Assembly: GCA_016931695.1 (NCBI GenBank)
Contig: JAFGEI010000126.1
Coordinates: forward strand, 1-44,950
From: Anaerolineae bacterium
GTDB taxonomy: Bacteria > Chloroflexota > Anaerolineae > B4-G1 > DUEL01
Reading direction: 5' to 3'
Length of the DNA: 44,950 nucleotides
The notes below the pieces were generated by a model. The model saw nothing but the letters and a program-made list of their open reading frames with translations, was not told where the DNA came from and ran no database searches. Below are positions 7,175-41,792 of the stretch, piece after piece. The translations under genes were made by a program, and so were the position numbers. The stretch's first letter is position 1. Every line of letters starts with the position of its first letter.

Positions 7175-7552
7175 TCAATTTTGCGCCTCCATGGCCAACA
7201 GGTCTTGAACCGCCTGTTCAACGACTGCGGCGGGAAGCGTCCCCCGCAGCACCTGGAAGGGTTCTCCCGAACGATCGAGTAGCAGAATGGTCGGCGTGCC
7301 GACGATTCCATACTCGTGCGCGGTTTCCCGGCCCTGCTCTTCGTCCTGGCTGACATAGATGACGTCGAGGCGGCGGCCATAGTCGTCTTCGATCTCGTTT
7401 ACGATGGGCATGACTTGTTCGCAAAAGGGGCAGCCCTCAGCCCAAAAGAACATCAGGGTGGGATTTCCCTCGCTTGGGCCTGCTCCCTGGCAGGCAGCGG
7501 GCCAGAGGGACAATGCTGCCAGCAGTAGTGTGATCCACAGCCGTTTCTTCAC
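7175..7552 (-). CDS. Thioredoxin-like lipoprotein (CPFC active site)
   Basis: The product is a small extracytoplasmic thiol-disulfide protein. The N-terminus is a lipoprotein signal with the lipobox cysteine at residue 21 (SLWPAAC). The thioredoxin active site CPFC is at 41-44 (FFWAEGCPFCEQV), and the cis-proline region is VGTPTILLLD. The longer open frame is ignored: the GTG at 7552 places the signal peptide correctly and has GGGGAG upstream. Length is 125 aa. The gene is last in a three-gene operon, 4 nt after the upstream selenocysteine thioredoxin-like gene, which is its paralogue. It could serve as the cysteine partner that resolves or re-reduces the other two proteins, which is inference. 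Confidence 0.85.
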   Translation of the reverse strand: MKKRLWITLLLAALSLWPAACQGAGPSEGNPTLMFFWAEGCPFCEQVMPIVNEIEDDYGRRLDVIYVSQDEEQGRETAHEYGIVGTPTILLLDRSGEPFQVLRGTLPAAVVEQAVQDLLAMEAQN

Positions 7553-7556
7553 TGCG

Positions 7557-7934
7557 CTACTCCCCAATGATGCGCTGGATTTCCATTTCCAACGTCTCGC
7601 GAGACTGCGCGCCTTGCAAACGGCGGGTCTCTTCCCCCGCGCTGTCGAAAAAGATAAACGTGGGCTGGCCGATAAAGCCGTGCGCCCGGGCCAGCTCTTT
7701 GCCGTGTTCGGTATCGATATTGATGCGGACGAAATCAATTTCGTCCCCGTACTGATCTTGGAGCCCATCCACGATGGGCTTTATTCCCTGGCAAACCTCT
7801 CACCAATCGGCGTAAAAGTAGAGCAGCGTGGCGCCTTCGATGACCTCACCCGGCGGGGTGCATTGCACCAGCAACAAGCTGCCGCCGACGAGCGCCAGGC
7901 CCAGCACGATCGTAACGAACAGATGATCTTTCAT
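7557..7934 (-). CDS. Thioredoxin-like protein with predicted selenocysteine (UxxC), in-frame UGA
   Basis: Reading through a single in-frame TGA at 7800-7802 gives a complete 125-residue thioredoxin-fold protein. An N-terminal membrane anchor (residues 5-24) comes first, then FYADW-U45-EVC48-QGIKP, where FYADWCxxCQxIKP is expected, then VRINIDTE and the cis-proline GQPTFIFFD. The stop therefore falls precisely on the nucleophilic cysteine of CxxC, and the frame is intact on both sides. The ATG at 7934 has an AAGGAGAAT ribosome site. A hairpin begins 19 nt after the UGA (see 7762-7780). The upstream gene has the same feature, which argues against sequencing error or a pseudogene. Lys2 and a Cys at 25 suggest membrane anchoring, possibly as a lipoprotein, although the lipobox is poor. 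Confidence 0.85.
7762..7780 (-). promoter_or_regulatory. Candidate bacterial SECIS hairpin, thioredoxin-like gene
   Basis: In the minus-strand mRNA, AGCCCAUC pairs perfectly with GAUGGGCU around a GUG loop (8 bp, 3-nt loop). It begins 19 nt after the UGA codon, the distance range used by SelB-recognised bacterial SECIS elements. It lies within the coding sequence. Confidence 0.65.
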
Positions 7935-7951
7935 ATTCTCCTTCCTCTGCC

Positions 7952-8521
7952 TTACGGGATGATCTCTTGCAACGCTTCGAACAGTTCTTCGTTGTCGGGC
8001 ACCTCGTTGATGTCATAGATGTGAATGAAGCGAACGATGCCCTCCTTATCGACGATAAAGGTGGCCCGCTCGGTAAAGCCCTGCTCGCGCAGGACGCCGT
8101 ACGATTGCGCCACGGCCCCGTGAGGCCAAAAATCGCTCAACAAGGGGACCTGCTCGATGCCCAGCGAGGCAGCCCACGCCGCGTTCGTATCCCAGCTGTC
8201 CACACTCACACCCAGAACCTGGGTATCTTCCGCCTGGAAGCGCTCGAAATCGGCATCCAGGGCGGGCATCTCCTGGCTTCAGACCGGGGTCCAGGCCAGG
8301 GGATAGAAGGCGATGATGACGTTGTGCGTGCCCCGGAAATCGCTCAAGCGGACGTAGCGACCGGTGTGATCCATGAGCCGGAAATCGGGCGCCGGGTCGC
8401 CGACCTCCAGGCGGGCATTCTCGATCTCACATGTCCCGGGCGCCGCTCCGCCGCAGGCTGTCGCCAGTCCCGCGACGAGGGTCAGGATGAGCCCGAGGAA
8501 TACAAAAAGATGCTTGTTCAT
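7952..8521 (-). CDS. AhpE/Bcp-type peroxiredoxin with predicted selenocysteine, in-frame UGA
   Basis: Peroxiredoxins reduce peroxides through a peroxidatic Cys in a PxxxTxxC motif. Here the motif reads PLAWTPV-U81-SQEMPAL, the TGA (8279-8281) replacing that Cys; reading through gives a full 189-residue protein. Other landmarks are VGDPAPDF (40-47), DFRGTHNVIIAFYPLA, VLGVSVDSWDTNAAWA and a normal C-terminal half. The N-terminus is a lipoprotein signal with lipobox Cys23 (LATAC), so the enzyme acts outside the cytoplasmic membrane. ATG 8521 has GGGAGG upstream. The gene is first in an operon with two thioredoxin-like proteins, which would be natural electron donors. Ordinary gene callers would break it into two pieces. 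Selenocysteine peroxiredoxins are known in anaerobes; this identity is strongly supported by the position of the UGA. Confidence 0.9.
8233..8261 (-). promoter_or_regulatory. Candidate SECIS hairpin, peroxiredoxin gene
   Basis: In the minus-strand mRNA CCUGGA (8256-8261) pairs with UCCAGG (8233-8238) over a 17-nt apical region that can form a further short CG/CG closure. It begins 17 nt after the UGA. It is weaker than the hairpin in the next gene. Confidence 0.4.
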
Positions 8522-8716: not shown

Positions 8717-9379
8717 TTACTCTTTGCCCGACTGCAGCTTTTGGTAGTATTTGGCGTGGTGGTGCTTGACGTACTCCTCCGGCATCCAGCCAAAGATCAT
8801 GCCGTTGAGAGCACCTTTCATCAGCGGATGGACGACAGAGAGCATAAAGTGGACCAGGAAAAAGGCCGCGTAGGCGATGGTGCTGAGATCGTGCAAAAAC
8901 ACGCTCCACTGGAACATCCATACCGGCACGACGCCGCGGCCAAACCACATGACCAACCCGGTGACGATAAAAAGGATCATGCAGACCGCCACCACCAGGT
9001 AAAAGAGTTTTTGCCCGGTGTTGAACTTGTCCTGCGGCGGCATGGCTTTATCGTCGCCCATAAAGTAATAGGCCGGCGCGGCTTTTGCCCAGCCCAGATC
9101 CTCCTTGCTCCAGGTGAGGATGCGCTTCATGTCGGCCAGGAATCCCTTCAAGTCCAGGACGACGTAGAGGATCGGGACCAAGATGAAGGCAATGGCGCCG
9201 ATGCGGTGGACAAGGCGCACCATGTTTCCCCCATCCCCGCGCGCGATTGACTGGCTGAACCAGGGGATGTAGAGCATGGCTCCGGTGATCATCAACACGA
9301 CAAACGCTGCCGTGTGCAGCCAGTGGGCGAATCGCTGTCCGACGCTGAACACGTAAAGCTCTTTACGTTTCTCGGCCAT
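8717..9379 (-). CDS. fdnI: Formate dehydrogenase gamma subunit, cytochrome b556 type
   Basis: This 220-residue membrane protein carries electrons from the beta subunit's iron-sulfur clusters through b haems to the quinone pool. It has four or five hydrophobic segments and the histidines expected for haem ligation (QRFAHWLHTAAF near the N-terminus, MVRLVHRIGA, FLVHFMLSVVHPLMKG). The C-terminal IFGWMPEEYVKHHHAKYY is characteristic of FdnI/FdoI. The ATG at 9379 lies 1 nt after the fdnH stop, with GGAGGAGG inside the fdnH 3' end. It closes the alpha-beta-gamma operon and is followed by a clear terminator. Confidence 0.93.
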   Translation of the reverse strand: MAEKRKELYVFSVGQRFAHWLHTAAFVVLMITGAMLYIPWFSQSIARGDGGNMVRLVHRIGAIAFILVPILYVVLDLKGFLADMKRILTWSKEDLGWAKAAPAYYFMGDDKAMPPQDKFNTGQKLFYLVVAVCMILFIVTGLVMWFGRGVVPVWMFQWSVFLHDLSTIAYAAFFLVHFMLSVVHPLMKGALNGMIFGWMPEEYVKHHHAKYYQKLQSGKE

Positions 9380-9380
9380 C

Positions 9381-10166
9381 TTATGCCTCCTCCGCCTTGA
9401 TGCTCTTGCGGGCGATCAACCAGTTCAGCACCAGCCCCAGGGCAGTGGCGCCCACGGCGACGCCGCCCAGTGCCTGAATCCAGGGCTGCCAGGCCGTAGC
9501 CAGGCCACCCGACGGATTCTCGGGCAGGTCGAACGCGCTGGGGGGATGGGTGAGCACGTACAGCATCCCCAGCCCGCCCAGGATGTTCTCGCCGTAAAGG
9601 TTGGCCTCAGCATAGCCGCGGCTCTGGAGCACTGTCACGCGCTCCCGCCCCGCGGTCAACATGTCGAGGCGGGTGCCATACTGGATTGCGCCGGTGTGAC
9701 AGGCGTTGGCGCAGGCAGGAACCAGCCCGTTGGTCGCACGATCCTGGCAAAAGGTGCACTTGGTCGCCTTCCCCTGGCCCCAACGGTTGACATCCTTCAG
9801 CCGCGGGATGTCAAAGGGGCAGAACTGGGTACAGTAGCCGCAGCCGTTGCACAGCGACTCGTCGTAGGCGGTAAAGCCCATCGGGTTCTTGTGCAGGGCG
9901 CCGGTCGGGCAGACCCGCACGCAGGGGGCGTCGGCGCAGTGCATGCAGCGCACCGGGCGAAAGGCCCAGTGCAGCCGCTCTCCCTCGTCGATCTCCCAGA
10001 AAGCGATGCGGTTCCAGGTATCCGGCGACAGATCGGGAGGGTTGTCGTAGCAGCCCGCACAGACCGTGATCTCGCCCGGCAGGTCGTTCCACGCCTTGCA
10101 GGCCACCTGGCACGCTCGACAAGCTGTACACTTGGAGACATCGATCAGCATTGCCATTACAGCCAT
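9381..10166 (-). CDS. fdnH: Formate dehydrogenase beta subunit, four-cluster ferredoxin type
   Basis: The protein relays electrons between the molybdopterin/tungstopterin subunit and cytochrome b. It contains four [4Fe-4S] cysteine sets: [11 protein letters not shown] near the start, CMHCADAPCVRVCP, CNGCGYCTQFCPF and CTFCQDRATNGLVPACANACH. A single C-terminal membrane helix (about residues 225-250, ending WLIARKS) anchors it, as in E. coli FdnH. Length is 261 aa from the ATG at 10166, chosen because GGGAGGT lies 7 nt upstream; an in-frame GTG at 10175 would overlap the alpha stop. It lies 1 nt after fdnG and 1 nt before fdnI. Confidence 0.94.
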   Translation of the reverse strand: MAVMAMLIDVSKCTACRACQVACKAWNDLPGEITVCAGCYDNPPDLSPDTWNRIAFWEIDEGERLHWAFRPVRCMHCADAPCVRVCPTGALHKNPMGFTAYDESLCNGCGYCTQFCPFDIPRLKDVNRWGQGKATKCTFCQDRATNGLVPACANACHTGAIQYGTRLDMLTAGRERVTVLQSRGYAEANLYGENILGGLGMLYVLTHPPSAFDLPENPSGGLATAWQPWIQALGGVAVGATALGLVLNWLIARKSIKAEEA

Positions 10167-10167
10167 C

Positions 10168-13100
10168 TCACACACCTCCCTTGGTCACCTTGACCAGGAA
10201 CGCCTTGTACTCGGGGATCATGGTGTTGGGGTCGCCGACGTAGGGGCTGAGGTCATTGGCAGTATCACCCTGGCACAGGCCGGTAAAGCCCCAGTGCCAG
10301 GGCATGCCAATTTGGTGCACCGTCCTGCCGCCCACCTCGAACGGCTTGAAGCGCTTGGTGACGATCGCCACCGCTTGGATCTTGCCGCGTTTGGATTCCA
10401 CCGTCACCAGCTCGGCATTTCCAACCTCCAGCTCCGCGGCGAACTCTTCGCTCATCTCGACAAACATCTGCGGCATCAGCTCGACCAGCCAGGGCAGGTT
10501 ACGGGTCATCTGGCCCGCCTGCCAGTGCTCGGTCACGCGATAGGTGGTGCAGACGACGTCGTACCCCTCCTCCACCGTGCCCACCTCGTCCGGCCGCCAG
10601 ACCGTGATCGCCGGGTTGTTCTGCGTGCTGGAGAGCGGGTTGCGAACGGGGCTTTCCAACGGCTCGTAGTGTTCGGGGAACGGGCCGTCGACCAGGCCGG
10701 GACCAAAGATGTGCGCGTATCCCGACGGCTTCATGATAAAGGGCAGCCGCGTCCCTTCCACGTTCAGCGGCGGCCAGCCGCCGTCCGGCACGTCGCCGTC
10801 CCACCCGCTGCCGTTCCACCGGATCACAAAGTCGTCCGGGTCCCACGGGTTGCCGTCCGGGTCGACCGAGGCGCGGTTATAGATGATGCGCCGGTTGACC
10901 GGCCAGCACCACGACCACTTGGCGTAAGTGCCGATGCCGGCGGGGTGGTAGTCGGTGTTGTCCCGCCACTGCTGGCGGTTGCCGTCCTTGCGGTTATAGC
11001 TCTGCGTATAGAGCCAGTTGGAGGACGAGGTCCTGCCGTCGTCTTTGAGGTGCGCGAAGGACTCGAGCAGTTCGCCCTTGCGGTAAAAGACCGAGCCATC
11101 CTCGTTGAGCAGGTCGGCCTCGGCAAAGCCGTTGATCTCGCGCGAGACCAAGTCGACCAGACTCGAGGCGCCGTTCTTGCCCTGCGGCGCGTCGTACCAG
11201 CCCTTCCAGCGCAGCTTGGTGATCGCCTCGGCATTGGAGCCGCCCTCCGCCTCGTACAACTCGATCACCTTGAGCATCAGCTCGACAATGATCTCCAGGT
11301 CAGGCCTGGCGTCGCCGGGCGGATCGACCGCCTTCCAGCGCCACTGGCTCCAGCGGCCGCTGTTGCTGATCGTGCCTTCCTTCTCGTAGGAGCAGGCCGC
11401 CGGCAGCACAAAGATTTCGGTGTCGATGTCGGCCGGATTCAGGCCCGGCTCCTGCCAAAAGGCGCAGGTCTCGGTCTCCCACAGGTCGACGCTGACCAGC
11501 CACTTGAGCTTTTGCAGCGCCTGCCGCTCGGCGAACGAGTTGGGACCGCCCACCGCCGGGTTCTGGCCCCAGCAGAACAGCCCCTCGATCTTGCCCTTGG
11601 CCATCTCCTCGAAGAGGGCGATGTGCGAGTAGTTGGTGCCCGGGTTGAGCTTGGGCAGCCAGCCGTAGCCAAAGTCGTTCTCCGCCGTGGCGTTGTCGCC
11701 GTACCAGCTCTTGAGCAGGCTGACGTAATACTTGGGATAGTTCAGCCACCACGAGGCGCTGCGCGGGTCGCTGGTGGCAAAGCCCGCCAGCTTGGCATCC
11801 AGGTGATCCCGGAGCGTGGGCTGGGCAGCCGTCGGCGGCGTCAGGTAGCCGGGCAGGATGTGCCACAGCAGGCAGTGGTCGGTCGACCCCTGCACGTTCG
11901 ACTCGCCGCGCAGGGCGTTGATGCCCCCGCCGGCCACGCCGATGTTGCCCAGCAGCAGCTGCAGCATGGCGTAGGAGCGGATGTTCTGCGTGCCGTGCGT
12001 GTGCTGCGTGGTGCCCATGGCGTACATGATCGTGCCGCTCTTGCCCACCGGCCCCGTCAGCCGCGCGTAGGTCTCGCAGACCTGCCGGTAGACGTCGGGA
12101 TCGGTCCCGGTCACGCTGCAGACCGTGTCGACGTCGTAGCGGGCGTACTGCCGCTTCAGCAGTTGAAAGACACAGCGCTCGTCCCGCAGCGTTGGGTCCT
12201 TGAGCGGAACGCCTGCGTCATCGGTCTTCCACTTCCAGGTCGATTTGTCGTACGTGCCAAAGCGTGGGTCGTCCTCCCCGCCGACAAAGCCGGAGAACTT
12301 GCCGTCGTTTTCGGCGGCGGTGAGAAACTCGTCGTCGATCAAAAAAGCCAGGTTGGTGTATTCGGTGACGTAGGTCATGTTATAGTTGCCGGGGTTGGCC
12401 TCCATGTCGTCGAGCACCCACTTGATCATGCCGCCGACGAAGGCGATGTCGGTGCCCGAGCGCAGCCGGGCATAGATGTGCGCCTTGGACGACGAGCGGG
12501 TAAAACGGGGGTCGACGTTGATCAACGTCGCCCCGTTCTCTTCGATCGCCTTGGTGATCCATTTGAAGGAGAGGGGATGATTCTCGGCCGCGTTGCTGCC
12601 GATGATCAGGATACAGTCAGCATTTTGAATATCACACCAGTGTTGGGTCATTGCTCCCCTACCGAACGACTCTGCCAGAGCCGCAACAGTAACGGAGTGT
12701 CATATCCGCGCCTGGTGCTCGATGTACACCAGGCCCAGCGCGCGCATCGCCTTGCTCAGCAGCGAGCACTCTTCATTGTCCAGCGCCGCCCCGCCCAGGG
12801 AGGCGATGGCCTCCACGCGGTTGACGGTGCGACCTTCGCCGTCTTGTTCAAGAAAAGAACCTTCGCGGGTATCCTTGATGCGCCGGGCAATGGTCTCGAG
12901 CGCCCAGTCCCAGTCCTTTTCCTCCCATTGACTGGAACCGGATGCGCGGTATTTGACCGTCTGCAGACGGTGACGGTTGATCTCGCCGTCGACCGTGTTG
13001 ATCTGCGCCAGCGCCAGACCCTTGCTGCACAAGCTGCCTTGATTGATCGGGTGGTCCGGGTCTCCCTCCAGGTTCAAGACCCTGCCTCCCTCTGCACTGA

Positions 13101-13272
13101 CGATGGCTCCACAGCCAACGCCGCAGAAGCAGCAGATGGTCGGGGTTTCCCCCACCATCTTGTGCAACGGGAATGTCGGAGCCTCTTCGGCCAGGGCGGC
13201 TCCAGAGGGAACCAACAAGGCGCCCGCAGTTGTGGCGGTGAGTTTGAGAAACTCTCTACGGTTGACCTTCAT
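10168..13272 (-). CDS. fdnG: Formate dehydrogenase alpha subunit, selenoprotein, TAT-exported
   Basis: This catalytic subunit oxidises formate to CO2 at a Mo- or W-bis-pterin centre outside the cytoplasmic membrane. The N-terminus has the twin-arginine motif NRREFLK (4-10) followed by a hydrophobic stretch. A [4Fe-4S] site is formed by Cys47, Cys50, Cys54 and Cys82 (TICCFCGVGC, LCSKG). An in-frame TGA at 12700-12702 encodes residue 191 in [24 protein letters not shown], exactly where E. coli FdnG has selenocysteine in NQARVUHGPTVASLAPTFGRGAMT. Reading through gives 1034 residues, the normal length. A candidate SECIS hairpin follows the UGA. The gene starts at 13272 and is driven by a near-perfect promoter at 13505-13532. 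It is paralogous to the alpha gene at 38679-41792. Confidence 0.95.
12667..12683 (-). promoter_or_regulatory. Candidate SECIS hairpin in fdnG
   Basis: In the minus-strand mRNA CGGCUCU pairs with AGAGUCG (7 bp with one G-U) around a GGC loop, starting 16 nt after the UGA. The same 17 bases occur unchanged in the second alpha gene (41187-41203). Confidence 0.65.
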
Positions 13273-37879: not shown

Positions 37880-38682
37880 GATGCCTCCCGTTCCTCTTGT
37901 TCAGCATCTTGTTCGGCGTGCATGTTTTTCTCCCGGCGGGAGAACCAGTAATAGAGGCCGCCCAACACGGCTGCCACGGTGACGGCGATGCTGGGCGTAC
38001 CATAGGTAGCGACCACCTCGCTCAGCGTCGTGACCGGCTCCGGCCCCAGGGTGGGGAACCCCAGCTTGTCGAAAGGAACCGCCGAGAGGTACAACCACGA
38101 CGTGCCGCCCAGTTCGTCCTTGCCATAAACGTGGTCGACGTACCGGCCGGGTTGGTTGCGGATGCGCTCCTCCGCCTCGGCGATGAGGTCGTCCCGGTTC
38201 CCAAAGACGATCGCGTCGGTGGGGCAGGCCTTGGCGCAGGCCGGCTCCAGCCCGGCCTCCAGGCGGTCCACGCAGAAGCGACACTTGCGGACGAAAGGCA
38301 GGGGCTCTTCCCATTCCAACTTGGGCACGCCAAAAGGACAGACTACCATGCAGTAACGGCAGCCGATGCAGCGGGCGGGGTCGTAGACGACGGCGCCCTG
38401 CTCCGTTTGATGGAAGGCGCCCACCGGGCAGGCCGACGCACAGGCGGGGTGCAGGCAGTGCATACACTGTCGCTTGGCAAAAACCCACTGCAGCCCATCG
38501 CCCTCGTCCACCTCGGTGAACTCGACCAGGGTCCACGTGTCGGCCGACAGCGCGGCTGGATTCTGATAGCTGCCCCAGTTTTGGGTCTCTTCTGCCGGCA
38601 GGTCGTTCCACTGCTTGCAAGCCACCTGGCACGCCCGGCAGCCGATACATCGCGTCAGGTCGACCAGCATTCCTTTTCTCAT
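37876..38682 (-). CDS. Formate dehydrogenase beta-like four-cluster iron-sulfur protein
   Basis: The 268-residue protein contains four [4Fe-4S] cysteine sets: [42 protein letters not shown] and [23 protein letters not shown]-terminal membrane helix (about 228-248, [23 protein letters not shown]) follows, as in FdnH. It should pass electrons from the selenocysteine alpha subunit to the NrfD-like subunit. The start (ATG 38682) overlaps the alpha stop as ATGA, with AAAGGGAG upstream. It is paralogous to 9381-10166. Confidence 0.93.
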
Positions 38683-41600
38683 TGTTCTGCACTCCCTTTC
38701 CTGATCCTGACCAAAAAAGCTTTATACTCGGGGATCATGGTGTTGGCGTCGCCGACGTGGGGGGTCAGTACGTTGGCGCTGTCGCCCTTGCTCAGGCCGG
38801 TAAAGCCCCAGTGCCACGGGATGCCGATCACGTGAACGATCTTGCCGTCCAATTGAAACGGCTTGAAGCGCCTGGTGACGACCGCCCGCGCCGTGATCGC
38901 CCCGCGCATGGACTCGACAGTGACCCACTCGCCGTTCTGGATCTCTGACGCGGCTGCCAGTTCCTCGCTCATCTCGACGAACAGCTCGGGCATCATCTCC
39001 ACCAGCCATGGGATGTTGCGAGTCATCTGCCCGGCCTGCCAGTGCTCGCTCACCCGGTACGTGGTCGCCACGACGGGGAACTCGTCGCACGTGCCAACCT
39101 GGTCTGGTCGCCAGACCTTGATGCACGGATTGACCTGGGTAGCGCCGAGCGGATGCTCGAAGGGGCTCTCCAGGGGTTCATAGTGCTGCGGGAACGGCCC
39201 ATCGGTCAGGCCGGGGCCAAAGATGTGCGCGAGTCCCAGCGGTTTCATGATGAAGGGGTAGCGCGTGCCCTCGCTGTTCATCGGCGGCCACCCGCCGTCC
39301 GGCACGTCGCCTTCCCATCCTTCGCTCGTCCAACGCACGACAAAGTCCTCGCCGTCCCAGGGATTGCCGTCCAGGTCGACCGAGGCGCGATTGTAGATGA
39401 TGCGCCGGTTGAGCGGCCAGCACCAGGCCCAACGGGCATAGAGGCCGATGCCGGCAGGGTGGTAGTCGACGTCGTCGCGCCACTTTTGGCGGTTGCCATC
39501 GCTCTCGTTATAGCTCTGCGTATAGAGCCAGTTGCTCGACGAGGTCGCCCCGTCGTCTCTCAGGTGCGCAAAGCTCTTGAGCAGCGTCCCCGCGCCGTAC
39601 GCCAGCGAACCGTCCTCGTTGCGCAGCGCGGTTTCGGCAAAGCCGTTGATCTCGCGCGAGACCAGGTCGACCAGGCTGTCCGCGCCGCGGGGGAAAGGCG
39701 AAGCGTCGTACCAGCCCTTCCAACGCATCTTGGTGATGGCCTCGGCGTTCGGACCGCCCTCGACCTCGTACAGCGCGATGATGTGGAGCATCAGCTCGTT
39801 CAAGATCTCCAGATCAGACCTGGCCTCGCCGGGCGGATCGACCGCCTTCCAGCGCCACTGGCTCCAGCGCCCGCTGTTGATCACACTGCCCTCTTTTTCG
39901 TACGAGCAGGCTGCGGGCAGGGCAAAGACCTCGGTTTGGATCTGTGCCGGGTCGACGCCCGGTTCCCGCCAGAAGGCAGCAGTCTCTGTTTCCCACAGGT
40001 CGACGGCCACCAACCATTTCAGGTTTTGCAGCGCCTGCCGTTCGACGACGCTGTTCGGACCGCCCACGGCCGGGTTCTGGCCCCAGCACAACAACCCCTC
40101 GATCTTGCCCTGCGCTAGCGCCTCGAACAGCGAGATGTGGGAATAGTTACCACCCGGTTCGAGCTTGGGCAGCCACTGGTAACCGAACTCGTTCTCCGCC
40201 GTGGCATTGTCGCCGTACCAGCTCTTGAGCAGACTGACCAGATACTTGGGATAGTTCAACCACCAACTGGCGCTCTTGGGATCGCTGGTGGCATAAGCCC
40301 GGGCGCGATTTTCCAGGTGGTCTTGCAAGGTCACCTCGCTGGCGTTGGGCATCGCCAGGTAACCCGGCAGAATGTGGAACAAGAGGGCGTGGTCAGTGGA
40401 GCCTTGGACGTTGCACTCCCCGCGCAGGGCGTTGATGCCCCCGCCCGCCACGCCCATATTGGCCAGCAACAGCTGCAGGATGGCGTAGGAGCGGATATTC
40501 TGGGTCCCGTACGTGTGGTGGGTGGCGCCCATGGCATACATGATGGTTCCACTCTTGCCCACCGGTCCCGTCCGGCGCGCATAGGTCTCGCAAACCCGGA
40601 TAAAGTCCTCCGGGTCGGTGCCGGTGATGGCACAGACGGTCTCGACGTCGTATGGTTCGTACTGTTTTTTCAAGAGCTGAAAAACGCAGTTTGGATCACT
40701 GAGCGTCGGGTCGCGCAGCGGGATGCCGTTTTCATCACTCTGCCACTGCCACGTTGTCTTGTCGTACTGGCCAAAGCCAGCGTTCTCACCGGGCACAAAA
40801 CCGGAAAACAGGCCGTCATGTTCCGTGGACGTCTGGAACGCGGGGTCGATCAGGACAGCGGCGTTGGTATATTCGACCAGGTAAGTCTTGTTGTAAAAGA
40901 GCGGATCGTCCAGATGTTCTTCCATGTCATCCAGGACCCACTTGATCATCCCGCCAAAGAATGCAATGTCGGTACCCGGGCGGAGCCGGGCATAGACGTG
41001 GGCTTTGGCCGAGGTGCGGGTAAAGCGTGGATCGAGGTTGATCAACGTGGCCCCATTCTCCTCGATGGCCTTGGTGACCCACTTGAAGGAGACAGGGTGA
41101 TTTTCTGCCGCGTTGCTGCCGACGATCAGGATGCAGTCGCTGTTCTGCAAATCACACCAGTGGTTCGTCATCGCCCCTCTACCGAACGACTCTGCCAGAG
41201 CCGCTACAGTAGCGGAGTGTCATATTCGCGCCTGGTGTTCCAGGTAGACGAGGCCGAGCCCGCGCAACATCTTGACCAGCAGGGCGCACTCTTCGTTGTC
41301 CAAGGCAGCCCCGCCCAGCGCGCCGATCGTCTCGACCCGGTTGACCGTGCGGCCTTCGCTGTCGACCGTTTGGAAATCCGGGTCGCGGGTGTCCTTGATT
41401 CGCCGCGCGATCTGCGCCAGCGCCCAGTCCCACGACTTTTCCTCCCATTCCGTGGCCCCCGGCGCGCGGTACAAGACCGCCTGCAAGCGGTAGGGATTGA
41501 TCTCCCCGTCCACTGTATGGATCTGCGGCGAGGACGCCCCCTTGCTACACAGGCTCCCGCGGTTGATGGGATGATCGGGGTCGCCTTCCATGTTGACCAC

Positions 41601-41792
41601 CTGGCTGTCCTGGGCGGCCACGATGGCGCCGCACCCCACGCCGCAGTAGCAGCAGATGGTGGGCGTCTCGCCGATGGGCTTGTGCAAGGGAAAAGACTGC
41701 ACCGCGGCTGCCCGGACAGCTCCGGCGGGCAAGATCAGGGCACCGGCTACAGTTCCGGTGAGTTTGAGAAAATCTCTGCGGTTCAGTTCCAT
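38679..41792 (-). CDS. Second formate dehydrogenase alpha subunit, selenoprotein, TAT-exported
   Basis: This 1037-residue protein (reading through one TGA) is a close paralogue of 10168-13272. It has the twin-arginine signal NRRDFLK (4-10), the [4Fe-4S] ligands Cys47, Cys50, Cys54 and Cys82, and an in-frame TGA at 41220-41222 for residue 191 in [24 protein letters not shown]. The selenocysteine position, the following His and the [11 protein letters not shown] run match known formate dehydrogenases. Its partners are a four-cluster beta protein and an NrfD-type subunit rather than a cytochrome b. Gene callers would split it at the UGA. A start at ATG 41792 is supported by GAGGAGGTTTGAA upstream. 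Specificity for formate rather than a related substrate is inferred from similarity to the first copy. Confidence 0.93.
41187..41203 (-). promoter_or_regulatory. Candidate SECIS hairpin in the second alpha gene
   Basis: The mRNA forms CGGCUCU-GGC-AGAGUCG 16 nt after the UGA, identical to the copy at 12667-12683. Here the preceding bases also form a perfect 6-bp stem, CCGCUA-CUG-UAGCGG, which is imperfect in the first gene. Confidence 0.65.

Follow-up and report, generated by a model that had tools for sequence, protein, structure and literature searches.

The locus studied here raises two linked questions: whether two adjacent genes that carry a UGA codon at the catalytic residue encode selenoproteins, and whether their products and that of a third gene could form one peroxide-reducing chain outside the cytoplasm. 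The genes occupy positions 7175-8521 of the window, i.e., the whole 44,950-nucleotide stretch of Anaerolineae DNA analyzed. The coordinates given in the original prediction were correct, and all three genes lie on the minus strand.

Organization and products of the gene trio

The first gene (8521-7952, minus strand), with TGA read as U, encodes a protein of 189 aa with the motif PLAWTPVUSQE. Its UGA (8279-8281, minus strand) specifies residue 81, the peroxidatic position of the PxxxTxxU motif. Matches to PF00578 (E 7.6e-37) and to AhpE as the nearest structures indicate an AhpE-type 1-Sec peroxiredoxin, a probable lipoprotein (LATAC, C23). The second gene, thioredoxin 1 (7934-7557, minus strand), read in the same way, encodes a 125-aa UxxC thioredoxin with the motif ADWUEVC and a hydrophobic N-terminal anchor; its UGA (7800-7802, minus strand) specifies residue 45, the first of UEVC in the frame translation, and is repeated in a second genome, G018 (see below). 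U81 and U45 are thus, as predicted, the single in-frame UGA of each gene. The third gene, thioredoxin 2 (7552-7175, minus strand), starts with GTG, carries CPFC at the active site and has its own TGA stop as its sole UGA; together with its WPAAC N-terminus this agrees with the prediction of a Cys-only thioredoxin-like lipoprotein. The peroxiredoxin and thioredoxin 1 genes are separated by 17 nt and the two thioredoxin genes by 4 nt, spacings from which we judge that the trio is probably co-transcribed, and a purine-rich, ribosome-site-like stretch precedes each gene.

Thioredoxin 1 scored 53.6 bits against PF00085 (gathering score 23.5), with UEVC at the CxxC-type site, and 57.6 bits against the NCBIfam equivalog TIGR01068, below its curated cut-off of 96.8; by these profiles it is a thioredoxin-domain protein outside that equivalog. 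The N-termini of all three products are hydrophobic, with a Cys closing the stretch in LATAC (peroxiredoxin), LLVQC (thioredoxin 1) and WPAAC (thioredoxin 2), and all three are probably exported and membrane-tethered. The predicted membrane or lipid anchors were therefore borne out by the hydrophobic N-termini and by LATAC, but less well by the lipobox of thioredoxin 1: we take LLVQC to be atypical and ILSAC, its counterpart in the G018 orthologue, to be canonical.

Evidence that the UGA codons encode selenocysteine

At the aligned peroxidatic position, U was present in 35 and C in 74 of the distinct homologues, i.e., in 109/109 rows (loci L078-L097 and the window were left out as repeats of loci already counted, and identical rows were dropped). 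The site was thus Cys or Sec in every homologue, free of unrelated codons, as expected from the original prediction. The same held for the genes selA, selB, selC and selD, all of which were found in the genome of the window with scores above cut-off (558.6, 351.8, 66.7 and 369.8 bits, respectively). Ignoring further evidence, the chance that two random UGAs would both fall at catalytic sites is about (1/189) x (2/125), near 1e-4. Because the site holds only U or C in the 109 homologues, and because both UGAs are repeated in G018, we do not regard them as accidental; on this comparative evidence the window contains two adjacent selenoprotein genes.

G018, which belongs to another family of the same class, has a full trio with an active-site UGA in all three genes (PLAWTPVUGQE, AKWUPIC and SSTUPYC). 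The third gene has therefore undergone a Sec/Cys swap, being TGC in the window and TGA (UPYC) in G018. The two peroxiredoxins are 72 percent identical, the next best genome reaching 56. Downstream of the UGA, dN and dS between the two genomes were 0.20 and 0.87 for the peroxiredoxin (108 codons), 0.35 and 1.38 for thioredoxin 1 (80 codons) and 0.54 and 1.40 for thioredoxin 2 (82 codons); since selection after the UGA is purifying, translation very likely runs past it. Adjacent same-strand selenoprotein genes conserved in a second genome are what identifies a selenoprotein operon, and the window and G018 share such an arrangement.

Two readings without selenocysteine were considered. That the UGAs are true stops, left by pseudogenization or sequencing errors or yielding truncated products, has a very slight probability: nothing speaks for it except the UGAs themselves, and it conflicts with the identical UGAs in G018, the purifying selection past them, the complete Sec machinery and a SECIS-type structure (see below), the first three of which led us to reject the pseudogene reading. 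A genome-wide reassignment of UGA (e.g., to Trp or Gly), which several genes with in-frame UGAs could suggest, is of negligible probability and was rejected, as UGA terminates the thioredoxin 2 and formate dehydrogenase alpha genes, each in-frame UGA analyzed in the window lies at a catalytic Cys/Sec site, and a tRNA-Sec is present with the rest of the Sec machinery.

In-frame UGAs were also seen elsewhere. The SelD match of the same genome (L016, G000:C191) has one, and this SelD is probably itself a selenoprotein. Another peroxiredoxin-like frame of this genome (G000:C231:27269-27712), 32% identical, has one UGA, and two further peroxiredoxin-like frames, L177:828-1196 and L149:11058-11453, have a UGA at the active site (DFTFVUPTE and FTPLUTGEM, respectively).

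Predicted RNA structures downstream of the UGA codons

Folding predicted a SECIS hairpin in each of the two mRNAs; in both, the first nucleotide of the loop is a G, placed 27 nt downstream of the UGA. The one in the peroxiredoxin mRNA (8230-8265, minus strand), also indicated by a synonymous-codon test, has the apical loop GAUUUCGA; the one in thioredoxin 1 (7763-7779, minus strand), also indicated by covariation, has a 7-bp stem and a GUG loop. Both conform to the published bSECIS rules (loop of 3-9 nt, G in the first two places, 16-37 nt from the UGA, MFE <= -7.5; PMC13188914), rules loose enough to be passed by 30/35 Sec peroxiredoxins, 30/74 Cys peroxiredoxins and 19/20 Sec thioredoxins. 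The sole Rfam match of the window at the gathering score was a tRNA. RNAalifold gave no consensus on the gap-free peroxiredoxin set, and by eye the stem register shifts among rows, for which reason we relied on the synonymous-codon test and on a hairpin count. Kinship among rows inflates such structure tests, and the Sec/Cys contrast serves as the control.

Compared with synonymous-codon shuffles, nucleotides 13-60 from the codon fold more stably in Sec than in Cys peroxiredoxins, with a mean z of -2.68 in the 35 Sec rows versus -0.23 in the 74 Cys rows (p 6.4e-15), and an inner 4-bp hairpin, with stems varied yet complementary, occurred in 30/35 Sec versus 8/74 Cys rows. The corresponding means for thioredoxins were -1.71 (20 Sec rows) and -0.35 (12 Cys rows; p 0.0011). 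All 20 Sec thioredoxins have a hairpin at nucleotides 24-40 with an invariant GUG tip; five of its seven pairs are formed in 19 or all of these rows, whereas 16 rows form the outermost pair and 5 the innermost. Cells changed on both sides of this stem numbered 16, versus 4.0 in shuffles (0/500). Two of the five covariation measures did not stand out, namely pairs with a change on both sides (4 versus 2.5 in shuffles, 31/500) and further pair types (6 versus 6.5, 462/500).

The signal was less clear for single genes than for the sets, with z of -1.68 or -2.75 for the window peroxiredoxin, depending on the source of codon usage, -1.00 or -2.18 in two runs for thioredoxin 1 of the window, and -0.87 or -1.55 for thioredoxin 2 of G018. 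The Cys-containing thioredoxin 2 of the window gave no structure signal (z +0.62 and +0.77), its weak hairpin still passing the loose published rules. For formate dehydrogenase, z was +0.39 and +1.09 with a region that cuts off the stem, and -1.58 and -1.64 with nucleotides 7-51. Five of the 20 Sec thioredoxin rows (L050, L058, L062, L071 and L075) were of a UxxU form with two UGAs (UAPU, UPAU or UPTU), for which one hairpin might serve both codons; this form is not among the PF00085 entries in the part of the PMC13188914 catalogue considered here.

Predicted fold of the peroxiredoxin and absence of the second Cys

AhpE was the closest solved structure both by sequence (E 1.8e-34) and by a Foldseek search (TM 0.77/0.94) with an AF2 model (mean pLDDT 86.4, below 50 for residues 5-34), in which ranks 1-12 were all AhpE. 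From these matches the protein is predicted to be AhpE-like and of the 1-Cys type; against the NCBIfam PrxU model it scored 63.1 bits, far below the cut-off of 270. In a 28-row alignment P74, A76, C/U81 and R152 were invariant and T78 was conserved in at least 90%. A second Cys, in the motif SVDSxxC, is present in 29/35 Sec rows and would be the natural resolving residue, kept in most of the apparently cytosolic Sec relatives. Thr takes its place in the window and in G018, and it is also missing from Sec rows L028, L030, L098 and L106; the window peroxiredoxin has no Cys at all after U81. Related Sec peroxiredoxins were also found in the named Anaerolineae relatives L102, L106, L110 and L154. 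In a quick tree the Chloroflexota Cys rows L099, L100, L101 and L104 were nested beside a Sec row in a largely Sec clade, a probable Sec-to-Cys change.

The trio itself proved rare. Peroxiredoxin searches covered overlapping sets of 249 class, 48 order, 400 phylum and 396 class genomes, with cut-offs (1e-30 for the order, 1e-45 for the phylum and 1e-57 for the 396-genome class set) strict enough that diverged trios may be missed; within this scope no trio was found outside the genome of the window and G018 (2/396 class genomes at E<=1e-57). Similarly, a PF00085-type thioredoxin within 6 kb was found only in these two among the Chloroflexota neighborhoods examined; for 9 of the other 28 class loci (L020-L047) the neighborhood extended no further than about 1.5 kb on one side (L040 was available in a longer form as L109).

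Gene neighborhoods of exported and apparently cytosolic peroxiredoxins

Across the 109 distinct peroxiredoxins, a redoxin or thioredoxin neighbor accompanied 50, all of which lack the second Cys (50/50) and have a hydrophobic N-terminus (50/50). The second Cys was present in 38/109, and none of these had such a neighbor (0/38) in flanks that reached 1 kb or more on both sides of every gene. Another 18, apparently cytosolic, had neither signal, second Cys nor neighbor (14 Cys rows and the Sec rows L028, L030, L098 and L106); a missing second Cys is thus seen outside the paired proteins too. Only three exported rows lacked the neighbor, two of them (L133 and L145) at a contig start. With the signal test being a crude hydropathy cut, the neighbor is thus found beside 50 of the 53 exported single-Cys/Sec peroxiredoxins. 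Since the resolving Cys is absent where the redoxin neighbor is present, the thioredoxins of the trio probably resolve the selenenic acid of the peroxiredoxin in trans.

The 50 paired rows fell into two clades of the quick tree, so that the pattern perhaps reflects two events. One of these clades, which we call Desulfobacterota-type, consists of bins labeled mostly Thermodesulfobacteriota or Deltaproteobacteria, with few others, and has a redoxin gene just upstream of the peroxiredoxin gene in 48/51 rows. This redoxin is an exported protein of ~190 aa of the AhpC-TSA/redoxin type (PF00578/PF08534), dissimilar to thioredoxin 1 in the one representative compared. Its motif has Cys first in 43/48 and is UPxC in 5/48 (L111, L134, L153, L165 and L175). 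The peroxiredoxin has Cys in all Desulfobacterota-type rows, including those beside UPxC redoxins. From these sequences the pairing therefore seems to have arisen on two separate occasions, and the donor to have acquired selenium in each.

Association with formate dehydrogenase

Directly upstream of the trio, on the same strand, lies an operon of the formate dehydrogenase-N type (13272-8717, minus strand). Its alpha gene (10168-13272) scored 1217.7 bits against TIGR01553 (cut-off 814.2) and encodes a twin-arginine-like start and Sec at U191 (UGA 12702-12700); the beta-like Fe-S subunit (9381-10175) matched PF13247 and scored 230.9 bits against TIGR01582, under the cut-off of 334.7; the gamma-like cytochrome b subunit (8717-9379) was over cut-off for PF01292 and, with 108.3 bits, just under the 115.85 of TIGR01583. 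A second alpha and beta pair is present at 37999-41792 of the window (minus strand), the alpha gene with a Sec UGA at 41222-41220.

Formate dehydrogenase genes occurred in the flanks (up to 8 kb) of 17/80 named homologues, all 17 of Desulfobacterota type, and in L127, L146 and L152 the order is fdhA-fdhB-fdhE-redoxin-peroxiredoxin. An FdhE-like gene is also found within the G018 cluster, as it is in Desulfobacterota-type clusters. Neither formate dehydrogenase nor a PF00085-type neighbor was found in 19 other enlarged Chloroflexota loci (L079-L097). To gauge chance adjacency we took 15 genomes (1.7-6.0 Mb), namely 14 of those with a formate dehydrogenase-linked locus, L120 being left out, and G018; formate dehydrogenase alpha gave 18 over-cut-off matches in 12 of the 15. 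By our own estimate, partly circular as the genomes were picked because they are linked, adjacency by chance should be near 1 percent. The G018 alpha gene (L078:7029-9374) has the catalytic UGA and two further UGAs inside the match, which covers positions 2-740 of 1009 with the C-terminal part missing. It may be decaying while the trio is kept, which would argue against a strict tie of the trio to the enzyme, as does the absence of formate dehydrogenase genes near the 19 other enlarged Chloroflexota loci.

A proposed relay and its alternatives

Our preferred reading, to which we assign a probability of about 0.6, is that the three proteins, tethered to the outside of the cytoplasmic membrane, work together as a relay dedicated to peroxide reduction. 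A Sec formate dehydrogenase would lie beside them, its active site being expected on that side of the membrane as well. We infer that peroxide is the substrate, that electrons pass through each of the following steps and that the relay serves to protect formate dehydrogenase. Sec81 of the peroxiredoxin would react with peroxide to give a selenenic acid. Because the peroxiredoxin lacks a resolving Cys, this would be attacked by a trio thioredoxin, the likely nucleophile being Sec45 of thioredoxin 1, to form an intermolecular Se-Se or Se-S bond; Cys48 of thioredoxin 1 would then free the peroxiredoxin, and re-reduction of thioredoxin 1 would fall to thioredoxin 2, to a membrane protein of the CcdA type, or to both. 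A CcdA-like protein (SPCVLPLVP, GWTPCIGP) is encoded on another contig of the genome and could supply electrons from the other side of the membrane. The predicted selenol chain stands as a plausible peroxidase-thioredoxin relay but not as a self-contained one, given that a membrane electron donor is still needed. A more specific version, which we hold as somewhat doubtful, is that the selenol thioredoxin resolves the single-Sec peroxidase through a Se-Se bond and so shields the Sec formate dehydrogenase from peroxide, the neighbor having replaced the resolving Cys twice with selenium in both donors.

The three proteins might instead be selenoproteins and partners of no single chain, the thioredoxins keeping house for exported enzymes (disulfides or cofactors of formate dehydrogenase and cytochromes) and a small thiol or sulfide reducing the peroxiredoxin. 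The closest relative is the 1-Cys peroxiredoxin AhpE, whose active site, judging from a structure title, was studied after exposure to mycothiol, which suggests that a small thiol may serve, and the FdhE-like genes in G018 and the Desulfobacterota-type clusters would suit the housekeeping role. We nevertheless think this unlikely, given the 17-nt and 4-nt gene spacing and the neighbor found in 50/53 exported single-Cys/Sec peroxiredoxins, two of the other three being at a contig start.

Electrons could also flow the other way, a peroxide-oxidized peroxiredoxin oxidizing the thioredoxins, which would form disulfides in exported proteins. Eukaryotes are known to use peroxiredoxins to drive oxidative folding, and the probable extracytoplasmic location would allow it here; the formate dehydrogenases and Sec enzymes, however, suggest an anaerobe, a selenol in the thioredoxin would favor reduction, and a gene for a CcdA-like reductant is present, all of which makes a reversed relay quite improbable.

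For the preferred relay, the trio itself is known from two genomes only, and yet it offers a testable case: two selenoproteins (three in G018) that resemble donor and acceptor of one chain. The comparative pattern, in which exported peroxiredoxins combine a redoxin neighbor with the absence of the second Cys and those with the second Cys have no such neighbor, is new and would explain why the redoxin-peroxiredoxin gene pair exists. The Sec/Cys swaps (TGC/TGA in the third gene, the nested Cys peroxiredoxins, and the Sec redoxin beside a Cys peroxiredoxin) are natural experiments on the contribution of selenium, and the formate dehydrogenase link points to a way in which exported Sec-Mo enzymes might be protected in anaerobes.

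Comparison with known systems

Each element of the trio has known counterparts (Sec-containing peroxiredoxins, thioredoxins of the UxxC type, operons of selenoprotein genes), and their assembly is apparently new: in the open-access literature, judged by titles and abstract beginnings, neither a selenoprotein operon that joins Prx and Trx nor one associated with formate dehydrogenase was found. The trio peroxiredoxin shares with AhpE (PDB 1xvw, 4x0x) the fold, the PxxxTxx(C/U) motif and the lack of a resolving Cys, and differs in having Sec for Cys, an N-terminal lipid anchor and adjoining thioredoxin genes. In the part of PMC13188914 considered, which cites work on Eubacterium acidaminophilum, a bacterial Sec peroxiredoxin (TxxU) likewise has a peroxidatic Sec in a PF00578 protein; that of the window is exported and AhpE-like. 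The UxxC thioredoxin (PF00085) catalogued there also has Sec in place of the leading Cys of the CxxC motif of its thioredoxin domain, whereas thioredoxin 1 is membrane-anchored and lies beside its probable client.

The same source names selenoprotein operons, among them Prx with SelW-like, Prx-like with AhpD-like, and others, e.g., SAO and Tso. As here, adjacent selenoprotein genes suggest one pathway; the trio differs in combining a peroxiredoxin with thioredoxins, in being exported and in lying behind a Sec formate dehydrogenase, a pairing that is not among the operons named. The Sec glutaredoxin and Sec MsrA pair ('Tandem use of selenocysteine', via PMC13188914), likened to the trio by its reference title, is a case of a selenol reductant serving a selenol enzyme in other protein families. 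A further parallel is given by the Desulfobacterota-type clusters of a redoxin and a Cys peroxiredoxin, which, like the trio, are exported, lack the second Cys and sometimes occur with formate dehydrogenase and fdhE; unlike the trio, they always have a Cys peroxiredoxin, and its partner is the ~190-aa AhpC-TSA/redoxin-type protein and not a PF00085 thioredoxin.
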